Shown here piece by piece: positions 4,178 to 42,591 of a stretch of DNA of 64,000 nt (position 1 is its first letter; each line of letters starts with the position of its first letter). The translations under genes and the position numbers were made by a program. The stretch is taken from the NCBI RefSeq assembly GCF_004923205.2, contig NZ_SELD02000043.1, positions 1-64,000 of the forward strand. The letters are read 5' to 3'. This DNA comes from Paracoccus aeridis. Its GTDB lineage: Bacteria; Pseudomonadota; Alphaproteobacteria; Rhodobacterales; Rhodobacteraceae. A model generated the notes under the pieces. It was not told where the DNA came from, did no database searches, and worked only from the letters and a program-made list of their open reading frames with translations.

Positions 4178-5435
4178 GCCGCCGGGCGACCGCCTGCATG
4201 GGACGCCGGCCGGGCCCGAGGCTTCCGTTCACGCGGCGCTGGACCGGCTGGCCGCGTCCTGCCCCAGCCTCGGCATCGCGCTGTCGGGCGGCGGCGATTC
4301 CACCGCCCTTCTGCACATCGCCCGCGACTGGTCCGGCTGCCGCGGCGTCCCCCTGCGCGCCGCCACCGTGGACCACGGGCTGCGCGACGCCTCTGCCGCC
4401 GAAGCGCGGGCGGCGGGCGATGCGGCGCGAGCGTTGGGGATCCCGCACGACATCCTGCGCTGGGACGGGCCCCGGCCCGGCAACCTGATGGCGCAGGCGC
4501 GCGACGCGCGGCTGGCGCTGCTGGCAGGGTGGGCCGCGGGCCACGGGGTCGCGGCCGTCGCCCTGGGGCACACCCGCGACGACCAGGCCGAGACGGTGCT
4601 GATGCGGGTGATGCGCGGGTCGGGGGTGGACGGCCTGTCCGGGATGAGCGCCGCGCGGCGCGCGCACGGCATCCTGTGGCTGCGGCCGATGCTCGACGTC
4701 GGCCGGGCCGAACTGCGCGACGTCCTGCGGGCCCGAGGGGCCGCGTGGATCGACGATCCCAGCAACGACAACGCCGACTTCGACCGGGTCCGGGTGCGGC
4801 AGGCGATGGCGGCGCTGAACCTCGACGCCGCCGCGCTGGCGCGGACGGCGGCCGACCTGCGCATGGCGCGCGAGGCGCTGGACCACGCGGCGCTGCAGGC
4901 CGCCCGGGGCTTCAGCGCCGACCGCGGCACATTGACGCTGCCGCTCGGGCCGCTGCTGGATGCTTCGCCCGAGATCCGCCGCCGCCTTGTCGCGGCCGCG
5001 CTTCGCTGGGTGAACGGCGCCGATTATCCCCCGCGCCGCGACGGGCTGGCGCACCTGCTGGAAAGCGTGGCGCAGGGCCGCAGGGCGACGCTGGACGGGG
5101 TGATCGCGCGCCCCGGCGGCGGCACGCTCCGCCTGATCCGTGAACCCGCGGCCGCCTGCCGCGCCGATCCGGCTACGGGCGACCCCGCCATCTGGGACCG
5201 CCGCTGGCGCGTCACCGGCCTGCCGCCCGGCGCCATCGTGGCCGCGCTGCCGCCGGACGCGCTGCCCGGCTTCGACCGCCGGGCCGCCGGACTGTCATAC
5301 GACGAAGCCGCTTCCACCCCGGGCGTCCGCCTGCCGGACGGAAGCTGGCTTGCCCCGGCCGTCGCCCCCGTTGCCGGCATCGCGGCTGCGCCATTGCGCG
5401 CCGATGCCGCGCTTCTGTCGCTCCTGTCGCATTGA
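4167..5435 (+). CDS. tilS: tRNA(Ile)-lysidine synthetase TilS
   Basis: The product is 422 residues with the PP-loop ATP-pyrophosphatase signature SGGGDS at residues 40-45, followed by TVDHGLR and GHTRDDQAETVLMR, all typical of TilS. The enzyme attaches lysine to C34 of tRNA-Ile(CAU), turning it into an AUA reader. ATG 4167 overlaps the end of cpoB by 11 bases and is the first sensible start. The C-terminal half is poorly conserved, as usual in alphaproteobacterial members. tilS next to ftsH is a widespread arrangement. Confidence 0.95.
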   Translation: MAAEPPGDRLHGTPAGPEASVHAALDRLAASCPSLGIALSGGGDSTALLHIARDWSGCRGVPLRAATVDHGLRDASAAEARAAGDAARALGIPHDILRWDGPRPGNLMAQARDARLALLAGWAAGHGVAAVALGHTRDDQAETVLMRVMRGSGVDGLSGMSAARRAHGILWLRPMLDVGRAELRDVLRARGAAWIDDPSNDNADFDRVRVRQAMAALNLDAAALARTAADLRMAREALDHAALQAARGFSADRGTLTLPLGPLLDASPEIRRRLVAAALRWVNGADYPPRRDGLAHLLESVAQGRRATLDGVIARPGGGTLRLIREPAAACRADPATGDPAIWDRRWRVTGLPPGAIVAALPPDALPGFDRRAAGLSYDEAASTPGVRLPDGSWLAPAVAPVAGIAAAPLRADAALLSLLSH

Positions 5436-5460
5436 TACCGACCCCCTCAGACCCTATTTT
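5432..5460 (+). promoter_or_regulatory. Probable housekeeping promoter of ftsH
   Basis: TTGATA (5432-5437) and TATTTT (5455-5460) are separated by exactly 17 bases and lie 30 bases before the ftsH ATG. The -35 box overlaps the tilS stop codon. The expected transcript start is near 5467, giving a leader of about 24 nt with a GCGGAGG ribosome site. Read by eye against the sigma-70 consensus; not tested. Confidence 0.55.
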
Positions 5461-5490
5461 GTCCCCAAAGCTCTAATCCCCGCGGAGGAC

Positions 5491-7389
5491 ATGCCCTTGG
5501 GCAACGCGCGCAACATCGCCTTCTGGGTGGTCCTGTTCCTGATGATCCTGGCGCTGTTCAACGCGTTCGGCGGGAACTCGGCCCAGCTCAACAGCCGGCA
5601 GATCAGCTATTCCGATTTCATCAGCCGGGTGGAAAACGGCGACGTCACCTCGGTCACCATCGACGGCGAGCAGGTCGGCATCACCGCCCGCGACGGCCGC
5701 CAGTACACGACCGTCCGCCCGCAGGGCGAGGAGATCGCTGACCGCCTGATCGCCCGCGACGTCGAGGTCAAGGTCGAGCGCCAGCAGCAGTCGGGCTTCA
5801 TGTCGATCCTCGGCGTGTGGCTGCCCTTCATCCTGCTGATCGGCGTCTGGATCTTCATGATGAACCGGATGCAGGGCGGCGGAAAGGGCGGCGCCATGGG
5901 CTTCGGCAAGTCCAAGGCCAAGCTGCTGACCGAAAAGCACGGACGCGTCACCTTCGACGACGTGGCGGGCATCGACGAGGCGAAGGAGGAGCTCGAGGAG
6001 ATCGTCGAGTTCCTGCGCAACCCGCAGAAGTTCTCGCGCCTCGGCGGCAAGATTCCGAAAGGCGCGCTGCTGGTCGGCCCGCCCGGCACCGGGAAGACCC
6101 TGCTGGCCCGTGCCATCGCGGGCGAGGCGGGGGTGCCGTTCTTCACCATCTCGGGCTCCGATTTCGTCGAGATGTTCGTGGGCGTCGGCGCGTCCCGTGT
6201 CCGCGACATGTTCGAGCAGGCCAAGAAATCCGCCCCCTGCATCGTCTTCATCGACGAGATCGACGCGGTGGGCCGCGCCCGCGGCGTCGGCATCGGCGGC
6301 GGCAATGACGAGCGCGAGCAGACGCTGAACCAGCTTCTGGTCGAGATGGACGGGTTCGAGGCGAACGAGGGCATCATCATCATCGCCGCCACGAACCGCA
6401 AGGACGTGCTGGACCCGGCGCTTCTGCGCCCCGGCCGCTTCGACCGGCAGATCCACGTGCCCAACCCCGACATCAAGGGCCGCGAAAAGATCCTGAACGT
6501 CCACGCCCGCAAGGTGCCGCAGGGCCCCGACGTGGACCTGCGGATCATCGCCCGCGGCACCCCCGGCTTTTCGGGCGCCGACCTGATGAACCTTGTCAAC
6601 GAGGCCGCGCTGATGGCCGCGCGCATCGGCCGCCGCTTCGTCACGATGGAGGACTTCGAGAACGCCAAGGACAAGGTGATGCTGGGCGTGGAACGCCGCA
6701 GCATGGTCCTGACGCCCGAGCAGAAGGAAAAGACCGCTTATCACGAGGCGGGCCACGCGGTCGTGGGCCTCAGCCTGCCCAAGTGCGACCCGGTCTACAA
6801 GGCGACGATCATCCCGCGCGGCGGCGCGCTGGGGATGGTGGTGTCGCTGCCCGAGGTGGACCGGCTCAACTTCCACAAGGACGAGGCCAAGCAGAAGATC
6901 GCCATGACGATGGCCGGCAAGGCCGCCGAGATCATCAAGTACGGCGAGGAGGGCGTGTCGAACGGCCCTGCCGGCGACATCCAGCAGGCGTCGGCCCTGG
7001 CCCGCGCGATGGTGATGCGCTGGGGCATGTCCGACAAGGTCGGCGCGGTCGACTACGCCGAGGCGCACGAGGGCTACCAGGGCAACACCGGCGGCTTCTC
7101 GGTCAGCGCGCATACCAAGGAGCTGATCGAGGAAGAGGTCCGCACCCTGATCGAGGAAGGCTACGACCTCGCCCGCTCGATCCTGATCGAGAAGTCCGAG
7201 CAGTTCGAGCGCCTCGCGCAGGGCCTTCTGGAATACGAGACCCTCACGGGCGACGAGATCGGCAAGATCCTGCGCGGCGACAAGCTGGGCGGCGACGACG
7301 ACACGCCCCCGTCGGCGATCCCGGTGGTGCAGTCGACCCCGCGCGTGACCCCGCCCAAGGGCGAACCCGCCCCGGTGCCGACGGCCTGA
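5491..7389 (+). CDS. ftsH: ATP-dependent zinc metalloprotease FtsH
   Basis: The product is 632 residues. Two membrane helices (about 9-26 and 104-123) flank a periplasmic segment. The AAA domain has Walker A GPPGTGKT at 196-203, Walker [10 protein letters not shown] and the SRH region [20 protein letters not shown]. The M41 zinc motif HEAGH is at 418-422. FtsH extracts and degrades misassembled membrane proteins and some short-lived cytoplasmic regulators. ATG 5491 follows a strong GCGGAGG site. The C-terminal tail is Pro/Thr-rich. It has its own promoter and a strong terminator, so it is expressed separately from tol-pal. Confidence 0.98.
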
Positions 7390-26515: not shown

Positions 26516-27598
26516 ATGACCGACACCGACACCCTGCGCTCGACCTGGCTTGCCCGCGTGGCCGATGCGGCCGATGCCCCCGCGCTGGAGGAGGTGCGGC
26601 TGGCCGCGCTGGGCAAGAAGGGCGAGATCAGCGGGCTGATGAAGGAACTCGGCCGCATGACGCCCGAGGAGCGCCAGATCCGCGGCGCGAGCCTGAACCG
26701 CCTGCGGGACGAGATCGACGCCGCGCTCCGCGCCCGCCGCACGGCGATGGACGACGCGGCGCTGGACGAGCGGCTGAAGTCGGAATGGCTGGACGTGACG
26801 CTGCCCGGCCGCCCCCGCCCGCACGGCACGATCCACCCGGTGAGCCAGGTGATGGAGGAGGTGACGGCGATCTTCGCCGACATGGGCTTCGCCGTGGCCG
26901 AAGGCCCGCAGGTGGAAAGCGACTGGTTCAACTTCGACGCGCTGAACATCCCGCCCGAACATCCCGCGCGGCAGGAACACGACACCTTCTTCATGGCGCG
27001 CGCGACAGGCGACAACCGCCCGCCCCACGTACTGCGCACCCACACCTCGCCCGTCCAGATCCGCGCCATGCAGGCGCAGGGCGCGCCGATCCGCGTGATC
27101 GCGCCGGGCCGCGTCTATCGCATGGACATGGACCAGACCCACACGCCCATGTTCCACCAGGTCGAGGGGCTGGCGATCGGGAAGGACATCTCGATGGCGA
27201 ACCTGAAATGGACGCTGGAGGAATTCTGCCGCGCCTTCTTCGAGGTGCCCTCGGTCGAACTGCGCTTCCGCGCCTCGCATTTCCCGTTCACCGAGCCCTC
27301 GGCCGAGGTCGATATCCGCTGCGACTGGTCCGGCGGGCAGCTGAAGATCGGCGAGGGCGAGTCGTGGTTGGAAATCCTCGGCTCGGGGATGGTGCATCCG
27401 AAGGTGCTTGCCGCGGCGGGGGTGGATTCGGCGGAGTGGCAGGGGTTTGCCTTCGGCATGGGGATCGACCGGATCGCGATGCTGAAGTACGGGATTCCGG
27501 ATCTGCGGGCGTTTTTCGATGGCGATCTGCGGTGGCTGCGGCATTATGGGTTTGCGGCAGGGGATGTGCCGAGTGTGAGCGGGGGGTTGTCGCGGTGA
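26516..27598 (+). CDS. pheS: Phenylalanyl-tRNA synthetase alpha subunit
   Basis: The product is 360 residues. It has an N-terminal coiled coil ([36 protein letters not shown]) and the class II catalytic core, with [30 protein letters not shown] and motif 3 [17 protein letters not shown]. The enzyme charges tRNA-Phe. The last 35 or so codons switch from GAC/GGC/TTC to GAT/GGG/TTT, unlike the rest of the gene, just before the AT-rich insert. The stop overlaps the GTG start of the next gene (GTGA), and pheT is separated from it by that gene. Confidence 0.97.
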
Positions 27599-28161
27599 GT
27601 AAAGAAAAGCATATTGAGAGGATTTGGATAGCTTCTGGAACGATCATTGCTCTAGGCAGCGTAGCCACTGCAGTTATTGGTAGGCCTCCTAAGCCAGAGG
27701 ACATCAATGATGCACTCGTCACTAATTCGGTTTTGGCGGCCCTTGCTATTCCTGGTATTCTATTCCTCACGGCGCTGTTGATATTCGACATCGTGCAATT
27801 GTTTATAATTACAAAACAAGCTACTACCAACTCAAGCAATCAGGCTTCCGAATCTTTTTTTGAGGAAGTTGTTTCTTTTCTGGCCGGAGGATATGGTGCT
27901 CTATGGGGCTGTATCTGCTTCCTTTTTTTATCTACTGCAACTTTTGCTCCCGGAGCAGTGCTTAGGTTTACTCGCAGTTTTTTTTCGTCCCCCTCGAATG
28001 TCGTGATGCTCCTCGGCGCTGCATTTCTTTCATCTGCTATCATCATCTGTCGGTGGGGCGGGAAGTTGGCGACTTTTGAGAGAGGTTTCTTGGCCTTCCT
28101 TACTACAATCGGGGTATTGTCCATTTCTCTTGGCTTCGTTGCAAAATGGAGCGGAGGCTAA
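27595..28161 (+). CDS. Unknown AT-rich multi-helix membrane protein lodged between pheS and pheT
   Basis: The product is 188 residues if it starts at GTG 27595, which overlaps the pheS stop (GTGA). Five hydrophobic segments are visible at about 9-30, 45-74, 93-118, 133-153 and 163-183, with a polar loop [18 protein letters not shown] after the second. I recognise no family and no catalytic motif. Base use is very unlike the neighbours: in 27781-27840 only 19 of 60 bases are G or C, while flanking genes are GC-rich at third positions. This points to recent transfer into the pheST operon. pheT starts two bases after the stop with its own GCGGAGG site inside this gene, so the operon stays translatable. 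Confidence 0.75.
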
Positions 28162-28162
28162 C

Positions 28163-30568
28163 ATGAAGCTTACCTTCTCCTGGCTCCGTGACCATCTCGA
28201 CACCACGGCGAGTCTGACCGAGATTACCGACGCGCTGACCGACCTCGGGCTTGAGGTCGAGGAGGTCGTCGATCCCGCCTCCAAGCTCTCCGCCTTCACC
28301 CTCGCCCGGATCGCGCAGGCCGAGCCGCATCCCGACGCCGACCGGCTGCGGGTGCTGCGGGTGGAAACCGACGAGGGCGAGAAGCAGGTCGTCTGCGGCG
28401 CGCCGAACGCGCGGGCGGGGCTGGTCGGCGTGCTGGCCAAGCCCGGAGACCATGTGCCGGGGATCGACACCACCCTCGGCGTGGGAAAGATCCGCGGTGT
28501 GGAATCCCACGGCATGATGGCCTCGGAACGCGAGCTGGAGCTGTCGGACGAACACAACGGCATCATCGAGCTGCCCTCGGGGCAGGTCGGGCAGCGGTTC
28601 ACCGACTGGCTGGCCGAGAACGCGCCCGAGAAGATCGACCCGGTGTTCGAGATCAAGATCACCCCCAACCGCCCCGACGCGCTGGGCATCCGCGGCATCG
28701 CCCGCGACCTCGCCGCCCGGGGGCTGGGGACGCTGAAGCCGCTCGACATCCCGCCGGTCGAGGGCAGCTTCGACTCCCCCATCGGCGTCACCATCGCGCC
28801 GGAGGCCACGGCGCGCGCGCCGCATTTCACCGGCCGGCTGATCCGCGGCGTGACGAACGGCCCCAGCCCCGACTGGCTGCAGCAGCGGCTGCGGGCCATC
28901 GGGCTGCGCCCGATCTCGACGCTGGTGGACATCACCAACCTGTTCACCTTCGACCTCAACCGCCCGCTGCATGTCTTCGACGCCGCCCGCGTCCACGGCG
29001 ACCTGACCGTGCGCGGCGCGAAGGCGGGCGAGAGCCTGCTCGCGCTCGACGGCAAGACCTACGACCTGCGCGAGAGCGACCTCGTGATCGCCGACGACCA
29101 GGGCCCCGAAAGCCTTGCCGGGATCATGGGCGGCGAGGCGTCGGGCGTGACCGGGGCGACGACGGACGTGTTCCTTGAAAGCGCCTACTGGCAGCCGATC
29201 GGGATCGCCGCGACGGGGCGCGCGCTCAAGATCAACTCGGACGCGCGCTACCGCTTCGAGCGCGGCGTGGACCCCGCGTTCACGCGCCCGGGGCTGGAGG
29301 CGGCGACGCGCCTGATCCTCGATCTCTGCGGGGGCGAGGCGAGCCGCGTGGTCGAGGCGGGGGCGGCGCCCGACACTGCGCGCGCCTACCGGCTGGACCC
29401 GGCGCGGACGCAGAGCCTCGTGGGGATGGAGATCCCCGAGGCGCGGCAGCGCGCGACGCTGGAAGCGCTCGGCTTCCGGATGGACGGCGACATGGCGTGG
29501 GTGCCGCCGTGGCGCCCCGACGTGCAGGGCGAGGCCGACCTGATCGAGGAAGTCGCCCGCATTGCGAGCCTGTCGCGGCTCGAGGGCAAGCCCCTGCCGC
29601 GTCCGCGCCCGGGCGTGCCGCAGCCCGTCCTGACGCCCCTGCAGCGGCGCGAGGGCGCGGCGCGGCGGATGGCGGCGGCGCTCGGCTACAACGAATGCGT
29701 CACCTACAGCTTCATCGACGAAGCCTCGGCGGCGCTGTTCGGCGGCGGCTCGGACGCGGTCAGGATCGAGAACCCGATCAGCAGCGAGATGTCGCACCTG
29801 CGCCCCGACCTGCTGCCCGGCCTGCTGGCGGCGGCGGCGCGGAACCAGGCGCGCGGCTTTGCCGACCTGGCGCTGTTCGAGCTGGGGCCGGTCTTCTCGG
29901 GCGGCGAGCCGGGTGAGCAGACGGTGCAGCTGACCGGCCTTCTGGTCGGGGCCAGCGCGCCCCGCGACGCCTTCGGGTCGCGCCGTCCGGTCGATGTCTA
30001 CGACGCCAAGGCCGACGCCGAGGCGATCCTTTCCACGATCGGCGCGCCCGCCCGGGCGCAGGTTGACCGCAAGCTCGACGGCTGGTGGCATCCGGGCCGC
30101 GCCGGCAACATCGCGCTGGGGCCGAACCGGCTCGCCACCTTCGGCGAGGTGCATCCGCGCGTCCTCAAGGCGATGGGCGTCAAGGGGCCGGCGGTCGCGT
30201 TCACGGTCCACGTCGCGAACGTGCCGCTGCCGAAGGTGAAGACGCCGACGCGCCCCGCGCTCAACCTCAGCGACCTGCAGGCGGTCGAACGCGATTTCGC
30301 CTTCGTGGTGGACGCGGGCGTGGAGGCGCTGACCATCGTCAACGCGGCGCAGGGCGCGGACAAGGCGCTGATCGAAAGCGTGCGCGTGTTCGACCAGTTC
30401 GCGGGCGAAAAGGCCGAGGCGCAGATGGGCGCGGGCAGGAAGTCCGTCGCGATCACCGCGCGTCTCCAGCCCCGCGACAAGACGCTGACCGACAAGGAGA
30501 TCGAGGCGGTCGCGGCGAAGATCGTGGAAAAGGTCGCCAGGGCGACCGGCGGCACGCTGCGCAGCTGA
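28163..30568 (+). CDS. pheT: Phenylalanyl-tRNA synthetase beta subunit
   Basis: The product is 801 residues. Domains in order are a tRNA-binding OB domain (about 40-150, ARIAQAEPHPDADRLRVLRVETDEGEKQVVCGAPN), B3/B4 (about 210-370, ALKINSDARYRFERGVDP), B5, the catalytic-like core (RMAAALGYNECVTYSFI) and a C-terminal FDX anticodon-binding domain (AVERDFAFVVD... RLQPRDKTLTDKEIE). It forms the alpha2-beta2 enzyme with PheS and edits mischarged Tyr. ATG 28163 follows GCGGAGG, which lies in the end of the AT-rich gene. Confidence 0.97.
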   Translation: MKLTFSWLRDHLDTTASLTEITDALTDLGLEVEEVVDPASKLSAFTLARIAQAEPHPDADRLRVLRVETDEGEKQVVCGAPNARAGLVGVLAKPGDHVPGIDTTLGVGKIRGVESHGMMASERELELSDEHNGIIELPSGQVGQRFTDWLAENAPEKIDPVFEIKITPNRPDALGIRGIARDLAARGLGTLKPLDIPPVEGSFDSPIGVTIAPEATARAPHFTGRLIRGVTNGPSPDWLQQRLRAIGLRPISTLVDITNLFTFDLNRPLHVFDAARVHGDLTVRGAKAGESLLALDGKTYDLRESDLVIADDQGPESLAGIMGGEASGVTGATTDVFLESAYWQPIGIAATGRALKINSDARYRFERGVDPAFTRPGLEAATRLILDLCGGEASRVVEAGAAPDTARAYRLDPARTQSLVGMEIPEARQRATLEALGFRMDGDMAWVPPWRPDVQGEADLIEEVARIASLSRLEGKPLPRPRPGVPQPVLTPLQRREGAARRMAAALGYNECVTYSFIDEASAALFGGGSDAVRIENPISSEMSHLRPDLLPGLLAAAARNQARGFADLALFELGPVFSGGEPGEQTVQLTGLLVGASAPRDAFGSRRPVDVYDAKADAEAILSTIGAPARAQVDRKLDGWWHPGRAGNIALGPNRLATFGEVHPRVLKAMGVKGPAVAFTVHVANVPLPKVKTPTRPALNLSDLQAVERDFAFVVDAGVEALTIVNAAQGADKALIESVRVFDQFAGEKAEAQMGAGRKSVAITARLQPRDKTLTDKEIEAVAAKIVEKVARATGGTLRS

Positions 30569-37638: not shown

Positions 37639-39144
37639 GTGCGGCATCCGCTGATCGCGAGCGAGCTGTTCCAAGCTCGCTGCAACACCGCAATCGCAGC
37701 AAGGCAATTCGGCCGTGTTACGCTGCAAACTGGCTCACGTTCATTGCATCAGGGATTGCTTTTGGAAAACGTGTTCTCTGCCCACGACTTCTTTTTCCCG
37801 GGTACAGACAAGGGGCTGTGCTATCTCGGTCCGCCCGGCAAGCTGCTGAAGAAGCGGCCGGCAGCACGGGTTCGGCAGATTGTCGCGACTGAGAGCGAAA
37901 CCGTAAACAGGAAGATGCGGAGGCGGATAGATCCCCGCTGGCGCACGCCCACCAATCCCCCGGTGTTTGAGACGCTTTCGTCGCTGGTGCTGGCCCGCAA
38001 TCTTGTTGCAGGACGACGTCGCATTTCCATCGAGGGGAAACTGGTACTCAGCGCAGCGGCGGGGGATCGGGTCTGGAAGGCCGTTCTGGACCGACTGGAT
38101 GCCAATGCCGAGCGGCGCTTGAATGCCGAGTTCCAGCAGCGCAAACAGGAAGCGCATCATGGGATGGAAGTGGCGGACCCTGGCGACGACGACGCTCCAT
38201 TTGTCGTCGATGCGAGGAATGGCTTCAACTTCTATCACTTTCTGACCGAGACGATGCCTCAGCTTTCCGTGATTGCTCGCGTTCGGTCGCAAGCAAGCAT
38301 CTTCATACATCTGCCGCGGGTAGATGACCTCAAGGACTTTGTTCAAGGTTACGTCAGCGACATCTATCCGGGCTTGGCGCATCGCGTCAGCTACATCGAC
38401 AAGATGGTCAAGTATGATGCCGCTCGTCTGGTCTATAACCATCGGCACTACCTTTACCAGTCCAGTGATGCGGCGATCGACATCGCGTTTTCGGAGCTTC
38501 CGCAGGACGATCCGTGGCGGCGTCTTGGCTCGGACCGGGCCTGTCGCAAGTTTCTGTCGAAATCGACGTTTGACACTGGAATGCGGCATCTGAGGCACGA
38601 CGCGCTGGAGCGGGTGAGAGGATTGCCACAGCAGGACCGCCCCAAGCGCCTGTGGATCGGGCGCGATCCGAACAGTCCGGATAACAAGAACCGCCCAAAC
38701 GCGCGCGAGAACGAATTGCTCGGAGAATTGCGCCGGCGCGACTTCACCGTGGCCTATCTTGAGAAACTGACGCCTCTTGAACAGATAGCGATGATCAATG
38801 GTGCCGACATCGTAGTCGGACCACATGGGGCGGGATTTGCGCATATGCTGTTCGCCAACCGTCGCGCCCTGTTCATCGAGGTTGGTACGCCGCAGACGCA
38901 GCTGCACCGATGGGGTGACTTTCTCGGTAACGCCCATGTCGCGAGCTGCGCCTATTCCACCGTTTTTGCGGATGTCGAGGGCTACGGCGCTGCGGAAGAC
39001 ATTCCAGCTATTTCGAGCGGGCATCGTGGAATTCATATCGGCGAATTGGCAGCAGAAAGGATCTTGAAGCACATTGACGAATTCTCCGCCCGTCACTGGC
39101 CTGTTTCCTCTGACGCTAAGGAACGGAATCGGACACGTTCGTAA
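37639..39144 (+). CDS. Glycosyltransferase family 61 (DUF563) protein
   Basis: The product is up to 501 residues. The C-terminal half has the GT61/DUF563 pattern: FVVDARNGFNFYHFLTETMP, RPKRLWIGRDP, then LTPLEQIAMINGADIVVGPHGAGF (about residues 375-400) and RALFIEVGTPQ. GT61 proteins add sugars to surface glycans; the substrate is unknown. The start is uncertain. GTG 37639 has a close TGAGG, but an AGCGAGCT hairpin (37660-37681) lies inside the first codons, so a later GTG or TTG start (37744-37771) is possible. Codon use is markedly less GC-rich than in the neighbours, indicating transfer. Confidence 0.8.
   Translation: MRHPLIASELFQARCNTAIAARQFGRVTLQTGSRSLHQGLLLENVFSAHDFFFPGTDKGLCYLGPPGKLLKKRPAARVRQIVATESETVNRKMRRRIDPRWRTPTNPPVFETLSSLVLARNLVAGRRRISIEGKLVLSAAAGDRVWKAVLDRLDANAERRLNAEFQQRKQEAHHGMEVADPGDDDAPFVVDARNGFNFYHFLTETMPQLSVIARVRSQASIFIHLPRVDDLKDFVQGYVSDIYPGLAHRVSYIDKMVKYDAARLVYNHRHYLYQSSDAAIDIAFSELPQDDPWRRLGSDRACRKFLSKSTFDTGMRHLRHDALERVRGLPQQDRPKRLWIGRDPNSPDNKNRPNARENELLGELRRRDFTVAYLEKLTPLEQIAMINGADIVVGPHGAGFAHMLFANRRALFIEVGTPQTQLHRWGDFLGNAHVASCAYSTVFADVEGYGAAEDIPAISSGHRGIHIGELAAERILKHIDEFSARHWPVSSDAKERNRTRS
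37660..37681. other. Hairpin at the left edge of the glycosyltransferase island
   Basis: AGCGAGCT (37660-37667) pairs with AGCTCGCT (37674-37681) over a six-base loop. It may be a terminator for the TrcR-like gene or a remnant of the island junction. There is no T-tract. Confidence 0.4.
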
Positions 39145-39157
39145 GGAGACAGCGTGA

Positions 39158-40000
39158 ATGCGTATTGTCGGGGTTTGCCGGTTTGCACTGATAGGGCGAG
39201 GGGATTGGCAGGCATACCGCGATGTTTCCGACGACGCGCTCGAATCGGTTTACGAAAGTGCAGCGACGGAACTCTTTGCGCCTGAACGCCTGGAGGCGCG
39301 GCTGCGCTCCTTCGAGAACCTTACGTTAGCATCGATGGCACGGCAGACAGACAAGGATTTTCTGTTTCTGGTGCTTTCATCGGATCGCATGCCCGAGAAG
39401 TACCGGAGCAAGCTTGAGGAACTATGCGCGAAAGTGCCTCATGTTGTTCTGCGCTTCTACCCGCCGACCGACGTCGGCTCTGCGGTGATTGCAACATGTA
39501 ACGACTTGAACATCAATCTTTCTGAGTTTGCTCAGTTCCGCCTGGACGACGACGACTGCCTGAGCATCCGGTTTATCGAACGGCTGAAGGTCCATTGTGA
39601 GCGCATGCGCGACCTCCGACCTTTCGCGATTTCTTTTGGGCGCAACCTGGCGGTGTCGATATACCGGGATCGGCCAATTGGTTTCTGGCGATACAATCAG
39701 GCGTTCTTCAGCGCGGGGTTGGCGATCCGCCCGAAACGTGCAGGACGGACTGTCTTTCATTTCGGTCACTTCGCAGTCCAGCGGCGCATGGATCACTTTG
39801 TTGATCAAAGTCACCTGGGAGCTCTCGTTCTGAAATGGCCATCAGACTCCATCCCGATGAATCCAGATAGACCAGGCGAGATGTATGTTCCCATCCCGCA
39901 GAAGGAGTTCAGTGAGTGCCTCGAGCGGGACTTCCCCTACTTGATCGGGTTCGACTTCGAGACATTGCGGCCGACGTCAACCAACCCAACCAGCTCATAA
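39158..40000 (+). CDS. Putative rhamnosyl-transferase-like glycosyltransferase
   Basis: The product is 280 residues. Its pattern resembles the proteobacterial 'putative rhamnosyl transferase' family (PF11316 type): N-terminal RIVGVCRFALIGRGDWQAY, FENLTLASMARQTDKDFLFLVLSSDRMPEKYRSKLEEL, then an Asp-rich FRLDDDDCLSIRFIERL that probably binds metal and nucleotide sugar. It follows the GT61 gene by 13 bases and shares its lower GC, so the two form one glycan-modifying unit. The 3' 64 bases overlap the 3' end of mutS on the other strand, which is unusual. Confidence 0.75.
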   Translation: MRIVGVCRFALIGRGDWQAYRDVSDDALESVYESAATELFAPERLEARLRSFENLTLASMARQTDKDFLFLVLSSDRMPEKYRSKLEELCAKVPHVVLRFYPPTDVGSAVIATCNDLNINLSEFAQFRLDDDDCLSIRFIERLKVHCERMRDLRPFAISFGRNLAVSIYRDRPIGFWRYNQAFFSAGLAIRPKRAGRTVFHFGHFAVQRRMDHFVDQSHLGALVLKWPSDSIPMNPDRPGEMYVPIPQKEFSECLERDFPYLIGFDFETLRPTSTNPTSS

Positions 40001-42591
40001 ACCAGCTCCAGCGCCTCGCGCGGGGTCAGCGTGTCCGGCGTGATCTCGCGCAGGCGCGCCTCTGCCGCCGAAACCTTCGCCGCCGGCGCGGCTGGCGGCG
40101 AAGCGCGGAACAGCGGCAGGTCGTCGATCAGCGCGGCGGGCTTCGCGCCGCCCTCGCGCGCGCCTGATTCCAGCGCCGCAAGAATGTCGCGCGCCCGGTC
40201 CACGACTGCCGAAGGCAACCCCGCGAGCCGCGCGACCTGCACGCCGTAGCTGCGGTCGGCGGCGCCCCTGGTGACCTCGTGCAGGAAGATCACCTCCCCC
40301 TCCCATTCGCGCACGGCGACGGTCGCGTTCTCGACCCCTTCGAGCTTCGCGGCAAGCTGGGTCAATTCGTGGTAGTGGGTCGCGAACAGCGCCCGGCAGC
40401 GGTTCTGCGCGTGCAGGTGTTCCAGCACCGCCCAGGCGATCGACAGCCCGTCCCAGGTCGCGGTGCCGCGCCCGATCTCGTCCAGGATCACCAGCGCGCC
40501 CGCGTCGGCCTGGTTCAGGATCGCGGCGGTTTCCACCATCTCGACCATGAAGGTGGACCGCCCGCGGGCGAGGTCGTCCGCCGCGCCCACGCGGCTGAAC
40601 AGCTGCGAGACGAGGCCCAGATGCGCGCGTGCCGCCGGCACGAACGCGCCCGCCTGCGCGAGGACCGCGATCAGCGCGTTCTGCCGCAGGAAGGTCGACT
40701 TACCGGCCATGTTCGGCCCGGTCAGCAGCCAGATCGCGGGCGTGTCGCCCGTCGTCAGCGCGCAGTCGTTGGCGACGAACGGCTCGCCCTTGCGCCTGAG
40801 CGCGCGTTCCACGACCGGGTGGCGGCCCCCTTCGACCACGAAGGCGCGGCTGTCGTCGACGCGCGGCCGGGTCCAGCCGTCGGCGCTCGCAAGGTCCGCG
40901 AAGGCCGCGGCAAGGTCGATTTCCGCCAGCGCGCGCGCGGTCTGGCCGATGCGCGGCCCCGCCTCCAGCACGGCGGCGACGAGGCGGGCGTAGATCTCGC
41001 GCTCGATCTCCAGCGTGCGGTCGCGGGCGTTGAGGATGCGGGTTTCCAGCTCGCTCAGTTCCACCGTGGTGAAGCGGATCTGGCTGGCGGTCGTCTGGCG
41101 GTGGATGAAGCGCGCGCTCAGCGGCGGGGCGAGCATCTTCTCGGCGTGGGTAGCCGTCGTCTCGATGAAGTAGCCCAGCACGCTGTTGTGCTTGATCTTG
41201 AGGCTGGACACGCCGGTCTCGGCGATGAACTCGCCCTGCATCCGGGCGATCACGCCGCGCCCTTCGTCGCGAAGGGCGCGCGTGTCGTCCAGGTCGGGAT
41301 CGTAGCCCTGCGCGACGAACCCGCCGTCGCGGGTCAGAAGCGGCGGCTCGGCCACCAGCGCGTCGTCCAGAAGCGCGATCAGGTCGTCGTGCCCGGTCAG
41401 GTCGCGCGCCGCATCCGCCAGCAGCGCGTCCCCGTCGTCCAGCATCCCCGCGATGCGGATCGCCGCGGACAGGCCGTTGCGGATGGCGGCGAGGTCGCGC
41501 GGTCCGCCGCGTTCCAGCGCAAGGCGCGACAGCGCCCGGTCCATGTCCGGCACGCGGGCGAGGCTGTCGCGCAGATCGGCGGTCAGGCGCGCGTCGTCCA
41601 CCAGATGCGCGACGGCGGCCTGGCGGCGATGGATTTCCGCAAGATCGCGGCTGGGCGCGCTGATGCGGCGTTCCAGCAGCCGCGCGCCGGGGGCGGTCAC
41701 GGTGCGGTCCACGGCGGCCAGCAGCGAGCCGTCGCGCCCGCCCGACAGCGCCTGCGTGAGCTCCAGGTTCCGGCGCGTCGCCGCGTCGATCTGCATCGCG
41801 CCGGCGCCGCTTTCGCGAACCGGGGGCGCAAGGCGCGGCATCCGCCCGCGCTGGGTCAGTTCGAGGTAGTCCACGATCGCGCCCATCGCGGCGAGTTCGG
41901 CCCGGCCGAAGCTGCCGAAGCCGTCCAGCGTCTCGACCCCATAGGCCGCACACAGGCGGCGCGCGCCCGACTGGCTGTCGAAGCTTGCCGCCGAAAGCTC
42001 GGTCAGCGCCGCCCCGGCTTCCGCCGCCACGTCGTCCAGCCGCGATCCGTCCAGCGCCAGCAGTTCGCGGGGGGCGTGGCGGGCGAGTTCGGGCGCCAGC
42101 CGCGCGGGCGGACAGGGCGCGACCCGAAGCGCGCCGGTCGAGATGTCGACCCACGCCAGCGCGCAGTCGTCGCGGACCTGCGCGAACGCGGCGAGGAAGT
42201 TGTGGCGCCGCGCTTCCAGTAGCGATTCCTCGGTCAGCGTGCCGGGGGTGACGAGCCGCACCACGTCGCGGGCGACCACGGATTTCGCGCCGCGCTTGCG
42301 GGCTTCGGCCGGGTCCTCGATCTGTTCGGCGATGGCGACGCGGAAGCCCTTGCGGATCAGCGTCAGCAGGTAGGATTCGGCGGCGTGGACCGGCACCCCG
42401 CACATCGGGATCGGCTGGCCCAGATGGGTCCCGCGCCTCGTCAGCGCGATGTCCAGCGCGGCGGCGGCGGCGACCGCGTCGTCGAAGAACATCTCGTAGA
42501 AGTCGCCCATGCGATAGAACAGCAGCGCCCCCGGATTGGCGTCGCGGATCGCGAGATACTGGGCCATCATCGGGGTCGGCTGGTCGGTCAT
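39937..42591 (-). CDS. mutS: DNA mismatch repair protein MutS
   Basis: The product is 884 residues. The mismatch-reading Phe-x-Glu motif is in GDFYEMF (F31, E33). The clamp and lever domains lie in the middle. The ATPase has Walker A GPNMAGKST near residue 625, STFMVEMVETA, the Walker B region LVILDEIGRGTATWDGLSIAWAVLEHL and FATHYHELT. The C-terminal domain ends EALELVYELVGL and then VDVGRNVSKSNPIK. Those last residues are encoded antisense to the glycosyltransferase gene and look like a read-through tail gained when the island joined. ATG 42591 is fixed by the conserved N-terminus PMMAQYLAIRDANP. Confidence 0.97.
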   Translation of the reverse strand: MTDQPTPMMAQYLAIRDANPGALLFYRMGDFYEMFFDDAVAAAAALDIALTRRGTHLGQPIPMCGVPVHAAESYLLTLIRKGFRVAIAEQIEDPAEARKRGAKSVVARDVVRLVTPGTLTEESLLEARRHNFLAAFAQVRDDCALAWVDISTGALRVAPCPPARLAPELARHAPRELLALDGSRLDDVAAEAGAALTELSAASFDSQSGARRLCAAYGVETLDGFGSFGRAELAAMGAIVDYLELTQRGRMPRLAPPVRESGAGAMQIDAATRRNLELTQALSGGRDGSLLAAVDRTVTAPGARLLERRISAPSRDLAEIHRRQAAVAHLVDDARLTADLRDSLARVPDMDRALSRLALERGGPRDLAAIRNGLSAAIRIAGMLDDGDALLADAARDLTGHDDLIALLDDALVAEPPLLTRDGGFVAQGYDPDLDDTRALRDEGRGVIARMQGEFIAETGVSSLKIKHNSVLGYFIETTATHAEKMLAPPLSARFIHRQTTASQIRFTTVELSELETRILNARDRTLEIEREIYARLVAAVLEAGPRIGQTARALAEIDLAAAFADLASADGWTRPRVDDSRAFVVEGGRHPVVERALRRKGEPFVANDCALTTGDTPAIWLLTGPNMAGKSTFLRQNALIAVLAQAGAFVPAARAHLGLVSQLFSRVGAADDLARGRSTFMVEMVETAAILNQADAGALVILDEIGRGTATWDGLSIAWAVLEHLHAQNRCRALFATHYHELTQLAAKLEGVENATVAVREWEGEVIFLHEVTRGAADRSYGVQVARLAGLPSAVVDRARDILAALESGAREGGAKPAALIDDLPLFRASPPAAPAAKVSAAEARLREITPDTLTPREALELVYELVGLVDVGRNVSKSNPIK

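Follow-up and report, generated by a model that had tools for sequence, protein, structure and literature searches.

The genes pheS and pheT, encoding the alpha and beta subunits of phenylalanyl-tRNA synthetase, are separated in Paracoccus aeridis by an AT-rich open reading frame (ORF) for a 188-residue orphan membrane protein. All three genes lie on the forward strand of a 64,000-nt stretch of DNA that is referred to below as the window (Table 1). The AT-rich gene is probably the current, interchangeable occupant of an exchange site that starts at the pheS stop codon, and the 3′ end of pheS is very likely to be such an exchange site, or hotspot, in general. Genes and DNA found behind a conserved host gene are called cargo here; the host names (pheS, pheT, lepA, sucC, tuf and mutS) were assigned by eye from sequence, without a family search.

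The cargo gene of the window differs sharply from its neighbours in composition. Its G+C content is 0.462, falling to 0.439 at third codon positions vs 0.90 in pheS and 0.94 in pheT, and only 19 of the 60 bases at 27781–27840 are G or C, the same count as in the first-pass annotation of this DNA. That annotation, made from the letters alone, had also described a membrane protein with five helices, and a Kyte–Doolittle scan indeed gives five hydrophobic segments (residues 10–28, 46–64, 105–123, 134–152 and 165–183). Its reading of a GTGA shared by the pheS stop and the cargo start, and of a pheT ribosome site inside the insert, agrees with ours, but one base, not two, separates the cargo TAA (28159–28161) from the pheT ATG (28163). 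The insert holds a single same-strand ORF, plus mechanically found ORFs on the opposite strand. Of 20000 shuffled versions of the insert, 4 kept this reading frame open, which makes a chance origin of the ORF unlikely.

The window protein is an orphan. It has no matches in Pfam, NCBIfam or PADLOC up to E 10, consistent with the earlier impression of an unrecognized family, and matches one PHROG, whose annotation gives no function, at E 0.001. Six-frame searches found homologues in its own genome alone, both among the 125 genomes of the genus and among 394 genomes of the family, the latter being a sample from a larger group in which rare relatives of the protein may be missed. Conservation of the gene at the pheS–pheT junction of relatives, named beforehand as the finding that would speak against acquisition, was not seen, the gene being present in 1 of the 125 genus genomes, its own. 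The homologues that had been anticipated in mobile or defence regions were likewise absent from the plasmid, phage, viral-contig and genome-contig collections.

At the pheS–pheT junctions of the genus we found inserts of many kinds. We located pheS in 122 and pheT in 124 of the 125 genus genomes, and in 75 of the 122 (P. aeridis included) pheT lies downstream of pheS, on the same strand and within 10.5 kb. The inserts at these 75 junctions extend from 435 bp to 10.5 kb after the pheS stop and vary in content; none of the 75 junctions is empty. The two genes had been taken to be normally adjacent, which is untrue in this genus, with at least 435 bp intervening in all 75 cases, and the empty junctions expected in relatives are found in other genera instead. 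There, some junctions are empty or short (−4, 72 and 76 bp), and in another set 6 of the 59 loci with pheT in reach have it at a distance of 100 bp or less. In 23 of the 122 genomes pheS and pheT are on different contigs and could not be placed relative to each other. Split or inverted pheS and pheT genes, seen in 24 of the 122, are unusual for the subunit genes of one enzyme. Since cargo starts on the pheS stop even where pheT is elsewhere or unplaced (e.g. at loci L136, L138 and L141), the true anchor of the site is the pheS 3′ end, not the gap between pheS and pheT. Use of the site was also seen among the 28 further genera covered (from those of 58 family genomes with a match that were given a locus) and among 79 of 80 mostly named loci. 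Searches of the open-licence PubMed Central literature gave no title or abstract opening that describes cargo between pheS and pheT in Rhodobacteraceae.

A gene that sits between the genes of two subunits and overlaps the stop codon of the first could be read as a regulator or partner of the synthetase, placed there for its function. This is extremely improbable: the occupants differ between close species, a variety that largely refutes such a role, cargo also follows pheS where pheT is elsewhere or unplaced, and similar cargo is found behind lepA and sucC.

The occupants were surveyed with ORFs found mechanically, without a gene caller, an AT-rich coupled ORF being defined by a length of at least 75 aa, a G+C content below 0.58 and a start at −8 to +2 of the pheS stop. 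The 119 usable pheS loci of the genus comprise 40 with an AT-rich coupled ORF, 18 with AT-rich DNA but no such ORF, 13 with a GC-rich coupled ORF and 48 with neither; an ORF start within −8 to +2 is thus present in 40 of the 58 AT-rich cases. The GTG at −4 seen in the window recurs in 28 of the 40. YrhK-like proteins account for 12 of the 13 GC-rich coupled ORFs vs 2 of the 40 AT-rich ones, and the YrhK-like gene is perhaps an older occupant of the site. Clustering of 86 hand-picked cargo proteins, taken from pheS, lepA (14), sucC (7) and, in four cases, other AT-rich segments, gave 10 groups of at least two members and 44 singletons, one of which is the window protein. Four pheS cargo groups contain members from other genera; no group among the 86 spans two host genes, lepA and sucC being thinly sampled. 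At least one hydrophobic segment is present in 48 of the 86. DUF2513 (PF10711) is matched by seven pheS cargo proteins from this and other genera, which form one group of seven in the clustering. The defence-like matches at pheS are the PemK toxin, matched in three genomes, and the Pycsar transmembrane effector (PycTM), whose PADLOC models are weakly matched by three cargo proteins of other genomes (E 1e-4 to 3e-3); none was found for the window gene. Further family names at the site are YrhK and DUF6173. Ten further chosen pheS cargo proteins had no Pfam match over the cut-off, and the PADLOC matches, in 4 of the 10, were weak.

As judged from the flanking sequences, this variety is best read as cargo replacement by homologous recombination in pheS and pheT. 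The set of close pairs consists of 52 species pairs from 25 compact junctions, with pheS 5′ identities of at least 0.84. Two of these pairs share the same cargo (0.89 and 0.93), one has related cargo (0.55) and the rest are at 0.52 or below, i.e. cargo is not shared in 50 of the 52. Genomes G108 and G061, which share their cargo, have a DNA identity of 0.83–0.86 at the pheS 5′ end, which rises to 0.90–0.95 in a tract made up of the final ∼ 750 nt of pheS, the whole cargo and ∼ 90 nt of pheT, and then drops to 0.76–0.88 along pheT (the last comparison interval, which extends beyond the gene, is omitted). In G044 and G084, the first cargo ORFs differ and the second ones are similar (0.71–0.73), and pheT identity is 0.89–0.91 for ∼ 450 nt, then 0.71–0.89. 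Two genomes carry a decayed 5′ piece of pheT after the cargo that is closer to another species than to their own pheT: 88.0% vs 80.1% in G026 and 84.7% vs 78.2% in G104. These scraps (loci L251 and L123) lie between the cargo and the real pheT, and other DNA, in G104 a symporter gene (by eye), separates them from the latter.

A similar mismatch is seen in the window itself. Its nearest relative by pheS and pheT, G049, has unrelated cargo, and the flanks are mostly ∼ 0.9 identical (0.78–0.99 per 150-nt piece), with values of 0.85 for the final 150 nt of pheS and of 0.81 and 0.78 for about the first 300 nt of pheT. Among 71–72 loci ranked by identity to the window, G049 leads in the 5′ 300 nt of pheS, is 14th at the pheS tail, stands 10th and 37th of 71 in the first and second 150-nt pieces of pheT, and returns to third place beyond 300 nt. 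Because its rank drops at these pieces, where loci L010, L021, L005, L016 and L014 reach 0.91–0.93, either the window or G049 appears to have taken in a foreign pheT 5′ end. Acquisition of the window gene from outside, as the first-pass annotation had proposed, is supported by the combination of an orphan protein, a foreign composition, an unrelated occupant in G049 and a pheT 5′ end that seems closer to other species.

Many inserts begin precisely on the pheS stop, and IS5-like and REP-type transposases were seen by eye in two junctions, as would be expected if the site were the target of an integrase or transposon and the window gene a degraded mobile element. Such an origin is improbable. 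The tract edges fall inside pheS and pheT, as in homologous exchange; no integrase was noticed by eye in the listed inserts of up to 1.3 kb, longer inserts being unexamined; and inspection by eye of the pheS 3′ end and the DNA preceding pheT showed no repeat between them, no repeat search having been run.

Several observations weigh against exchange of this kind or against a defensive purpose for it. The pheT scrap of G011 is 84.5% identical to its own pheT vs 84.9% to the best other one, which leaves import unsupported, and it may be a local duplication. The nearest neighbours of the window shift in mid-pheS too (where G049 ranks 4), and a single gene resolves kinship poorly. Mean identities over the 50 pairs have no dip at the edges (0.867 in the body of pheS, 0.862 in the tail, 0.863 and 0.846 in pheT), so the edge signal is confined to single pairs. 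In the 24 genomes with split or inverted genes, the contig that carries pheS also carries pheT, but at a distance of more than 20 kb, upstream, or in inverted orientation. Many pheS cargo proteins lack a family name and give weak PADLOC matches, and some occupants look like housekeeping genes (the YrhK-like ones, and by eye a TM2-like gene and the symporter). Finally, the window protein, with neither family match nor homologue and with a single-sequence structure model of low confidence (predicted local distance difference test score, pLDDT, 60), has no link of its own to defence.

The interchangeable-occupant reading suggests the following scheme. Cargo could be translated after pheS without a promoter of its own, since the ORFs start within −8 to +2 of the stop, often with GTG at −4; from this arrangement, coupling of cargo expression to pheS translation is quite likely. 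Homologous recombination within pheS and pheT would carry the cargo, together with the pheS 3′ end and the pheT 5′ end, from species to species as a single tract; one clear pair, two scars and the neighbour mismatch at the window support this. The DNA might arrive as short linear fragments, in gene transfer agent particles or by transduction or transformation, and the essential, conserved neighbours would provide homology as well as steady expression. A single gene transfer agent marker, GTA_TIM (PF13547), which related prophages could also carry, has 4 matches in the P. aeridis genome and is matched in 59 of 61 genus genomes; this is compatible with a gene transfer agent as the vehicle, no more. 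The gene transfer agent TIM-barrel family is expected as one cluster per genome; the matches in P. aeridis are spread over contigs C26, C28, C41 and C43.

Many of the cargo genes may encode single-gene effectors against phages or plasmids. Of the earlier guess that the window gene is a toxin, an immunity protein or an anti-phage effector, what stands is the company, defence-like proteins being present at the same and at similar sites; nothing from the window protein itself adds to it. On the basis of that company, a defence role for this protein has somewhat less than an even chance. Its likeliest single role, again at less than even odds, is that of a small defence-type membrane effector, which would act by growth arrest at the membrane or by depolarization upon infection. 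Cargo might instead be made up of neutral passengers, short AT-rich foreign genes that land widely and, where the insertion spares pheT expression, survive and turn over without benefit. The orphan in the window, the many unnamed cargo proteins and the nearly complete turnover between close species would suit such passengers, but four cargo groups recur at pheS in several genera and several of the named cargo at pheS and lepA are defence- or toxin-like, which makes this account unlikely.

AT-rich DNA also follows other conserved genes. In 400 kb of G024, each of the five AT-rich segments of at least 500 bp starts at a gene's 3′ end. The genes are pheS, lepA, sucC (with sucD next), tuf (upstream of rpsJ, with an ORF that begins 166 nt after the tuf stop) and an unnamed one, behind which ParA-like and SIR2-like ORFs lie. 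The last of these segments (L182 ∼ 4600–6464; G024:C1 1724.6–1726.5 kb) begins at the stop codon of its host gene, whose tail is C-poor, and its ParA-like and SIR2-like ORFs each appear to be split in two. A SIR2_2 match was obtained in an AT-rich segment other than those at pheS and lepA. On 240 kb of the contig of the window there are two AT-rich segments of at least 400 bp, one behind lepA and the other ∼ 460 bp from the nearest 3′ end. Behind lepA, DNA with a G+C content below 0.56 was found in 17 of 30 kept loci (41 genomes searched), and behind sucC in 5 of 30, with varying occupants. The lepA cargo gives strong matches to an OLD/AriA/GajA-type ATPase, a NucC/PD-DExK-like protein and the PADLOC defence candidates PDC-S59 and PDC-M34A. 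Counted by eye, GGG is the final lepA codon at 13 of the 17 loci with AT-rich DNA vs 3 of the 13 others, and GGG followed by a TGA stop yields a GTGA start. On contig C43 of P. aeridis, AT-rich ORFs also lie at the lepA stop (196 aa, −4) and the sucC stop (171 aa, −1) (L195 and L222); the 196-aa lepA cargo has no PADLOC match. Elsewhere in the window, an AT-rich stretch (38911–40010, G+C 0.56) lies behind the 3′ end of mutS, with a 280-aa ORF (39158–40000) on the strand opposite to mutS; the mutS tail is fairly C-poor (rank 3 of the 36 window genes).

The 3′ end of the host gene is itself unusual. In the window pheS, G/(G+C) at fourfold sites is 0.94 in the last 30 codons and 0.87 in the preceding 30, making this the most C-poor tail of the 36 window genes. 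Across the 119 genus loci, the mean for the last 30 pheS codons is 0.81 where the next 300 bp have a G+C content below 0.56 (n = 53) and 0.49 where it is at least 0.60 (n = 44). The rank correlation of the tail with downstream G+C is −0.68 in the last 30 codons and −0.21 in the next 30, further bins being non-significant. Phylogenetic contrasts on a pheS 5′ tree give r = −0.50 (118 contrasts, P ∼ 1e-8), with sign agreement in just 69 of 112. With kinship uncorrected, the same trend is seen at lepA (rho −0.42) and sucC (−0.47), and outside the genus (−0.62 for 28 loci, −0.34 for 59 loci). Among 286 genes of G024, pheS has the most C-poor tail, and third place is shared by lepA and the gene that hosts the ParA/SIR2-like ORFs; the sucC (68) and tuf (142) tails are ordinary. 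For 261 genes in the 400 kb of that genome, tail and downstream G+C are uncorrelated (rho −0.02), few genes there preceding AT-rich DNA. At the 5′ ends of pheT the skew is weak and of opposite sign (rho 0.23 and 0.35 for the first and second 30-codon blocks; 73 loci, kinship uncorrected). An alpha/beta hydrolase gene (by eye; G000:C43 226927–227724, L258) is convergent to lepA and faces its AT-rich insert; its tail and that of lepA are jointly the most C-poor among 164 genes, the one clear case among 7.

Transfer of the tail along with the cargo may explain part of this C-poverty, since the tract of G108 and G061 includes the pheS 3′ end. Similarity of tails between distant cargo carriers fits transfer and convergent recoding alike. 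Donor codon usage was rejected as a cause, by reasoning alone: an AT-rich donor should give codons ending in A or T, not in G. The termination factor Rho anchors on C-rich RNA and has been implicated in the silencing of A/T-rich acquired DNA (PMC6797219). Selection might therefore keep the tail poor in C so that transcription into AT-rich cargo escapes Rho. Depletion mostly within ∼ 30 codons, about the length of a Rho site, and the dependence of the tail on downstream G+C in the genus, also after correction for kinship, and at lepA and sucC would be in line with this idea. Yet GC-rich ORFs coupled to pheS (12 of 13 YrhK-like) come without depletion (0.45), as do ordinary coupled genes, a G-rich tail (0.74) likewise precedes AT-rich DNA that lacks a coupled ORF, the gene convergent to the lepA cargo equals lepA in C-poverty in the one clear case among 7, and the sucC and tuf tails of G024 are undepleted. 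On balance, escape from Rho is rather doubtful.

More broadly, and tentatively, the stop codons of essential genes in Rhodobacteraceae (pheS, lepA, sucC, perhaps tuf and others) might be standing docking sites, where cargo is coupled to the host gene and swapped as tracts with the flanking gene ends, and where docking, at several of these sites, leaves the last ∼ 30–60 host codons poor in C through an undescribed mechanism at the DNA or RNA level.

Table 1. Features of the pheS–pheT region of the P. aeridis window.
Feature	Position	Strand	Basis
pheS, phenylalanyl-tRNA synthetase alpha subunit, host of the docking site	26516..27598	+	named by eye; matched in 122 of 125 genus genomes
C-poor, G-rich 3′ end of pheS, last 60 codons	27416..27598	+	G/(G+C) at fourfold sites
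GGGGGG run, possible ribosome site, 8 nt upstream of the cargo GTG	27581..27586	+	read by eye
GTGA overlap of cargo start and pheS stop, putative translational coupling	27595..27598	+	sequence
Orphan membrane protein gene (cargo), 188 aa, GTG start, TAA stop, five hydrophobic segments	27595..28161	+	ORF list, hydropathy
GGAGG, ribosome site for pheT, within the cargo gene	28153..28157	+	read by eye
pheT, beta subunit; first 300 nt a putative right edge of the exchanged tract	28163..30568	+	named by eye, identity comparison

Defence and accessory genes are usually sought in islands, often near tRNA genes or mobile elements. Cargo that sits one or two genes at a time behind essential genes could be missed by methods that find islands, and conserved neighbours could supply both expression and the homology for transfer. 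A simple search rule follows: candidate small effectors may be sought wherever an AT-rich ORF sits at the stop codon of a core gene, whose tail is often C-poor. The recoded tail poses a puzzle about how GC-rich genomes accommodate foreign DNA; if the docking hypothesis is true, this mark could locate a large reservoir of uncharacterized, probably defensive genes in Rhodobacteraceae.

With respect to individual proteins, the likeness to PycTM is limited to the three weakly matching cargo of other genomes, the window protein itself not matching the PycTM models; nor does it group with any of the seven cargo proteins that match DUF2513. As a site, the pheS 3′ end resembles the recombination-driven hotspots described by Oliveira et al. 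(2017; PMC5635113), in that variable genes lie between conserved core genes, no mobile element appears to be needed, exchange probably proceeds through flanking homology and turnover is rapid. It differs from them in that the cargo lies inside one operon (by reading), on the stop codon of an essential gene, with one or two ORFs when compact and a C-poor host 3′ end. In Pseudomonas aeruginosa, core defence hotspot 1 (cDHS1) is bounded by merR and a DUF4011 gene, has a median size of 26 kb, takes mobile elements and has translation genes including pheS and pheT, as well as ihfA and a proline tRNA, in its left flank (PMC10250203). The two sites have in common the proximity of pheS and pheT, a defence content that is only probable at pheS, and transfer through flanking homology, which was proposed there for cDHS1; the cargo at the pheS site, in contrast, lies between pheS and pheT, is shorter than 1 kb when compact and overlaps the pheS stop. 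The pheS site differs from the known hotspots in its location between two subunit genes of an essential enzyme, its overlap with a stop codon, its size and the C-poor tail of its host gene.
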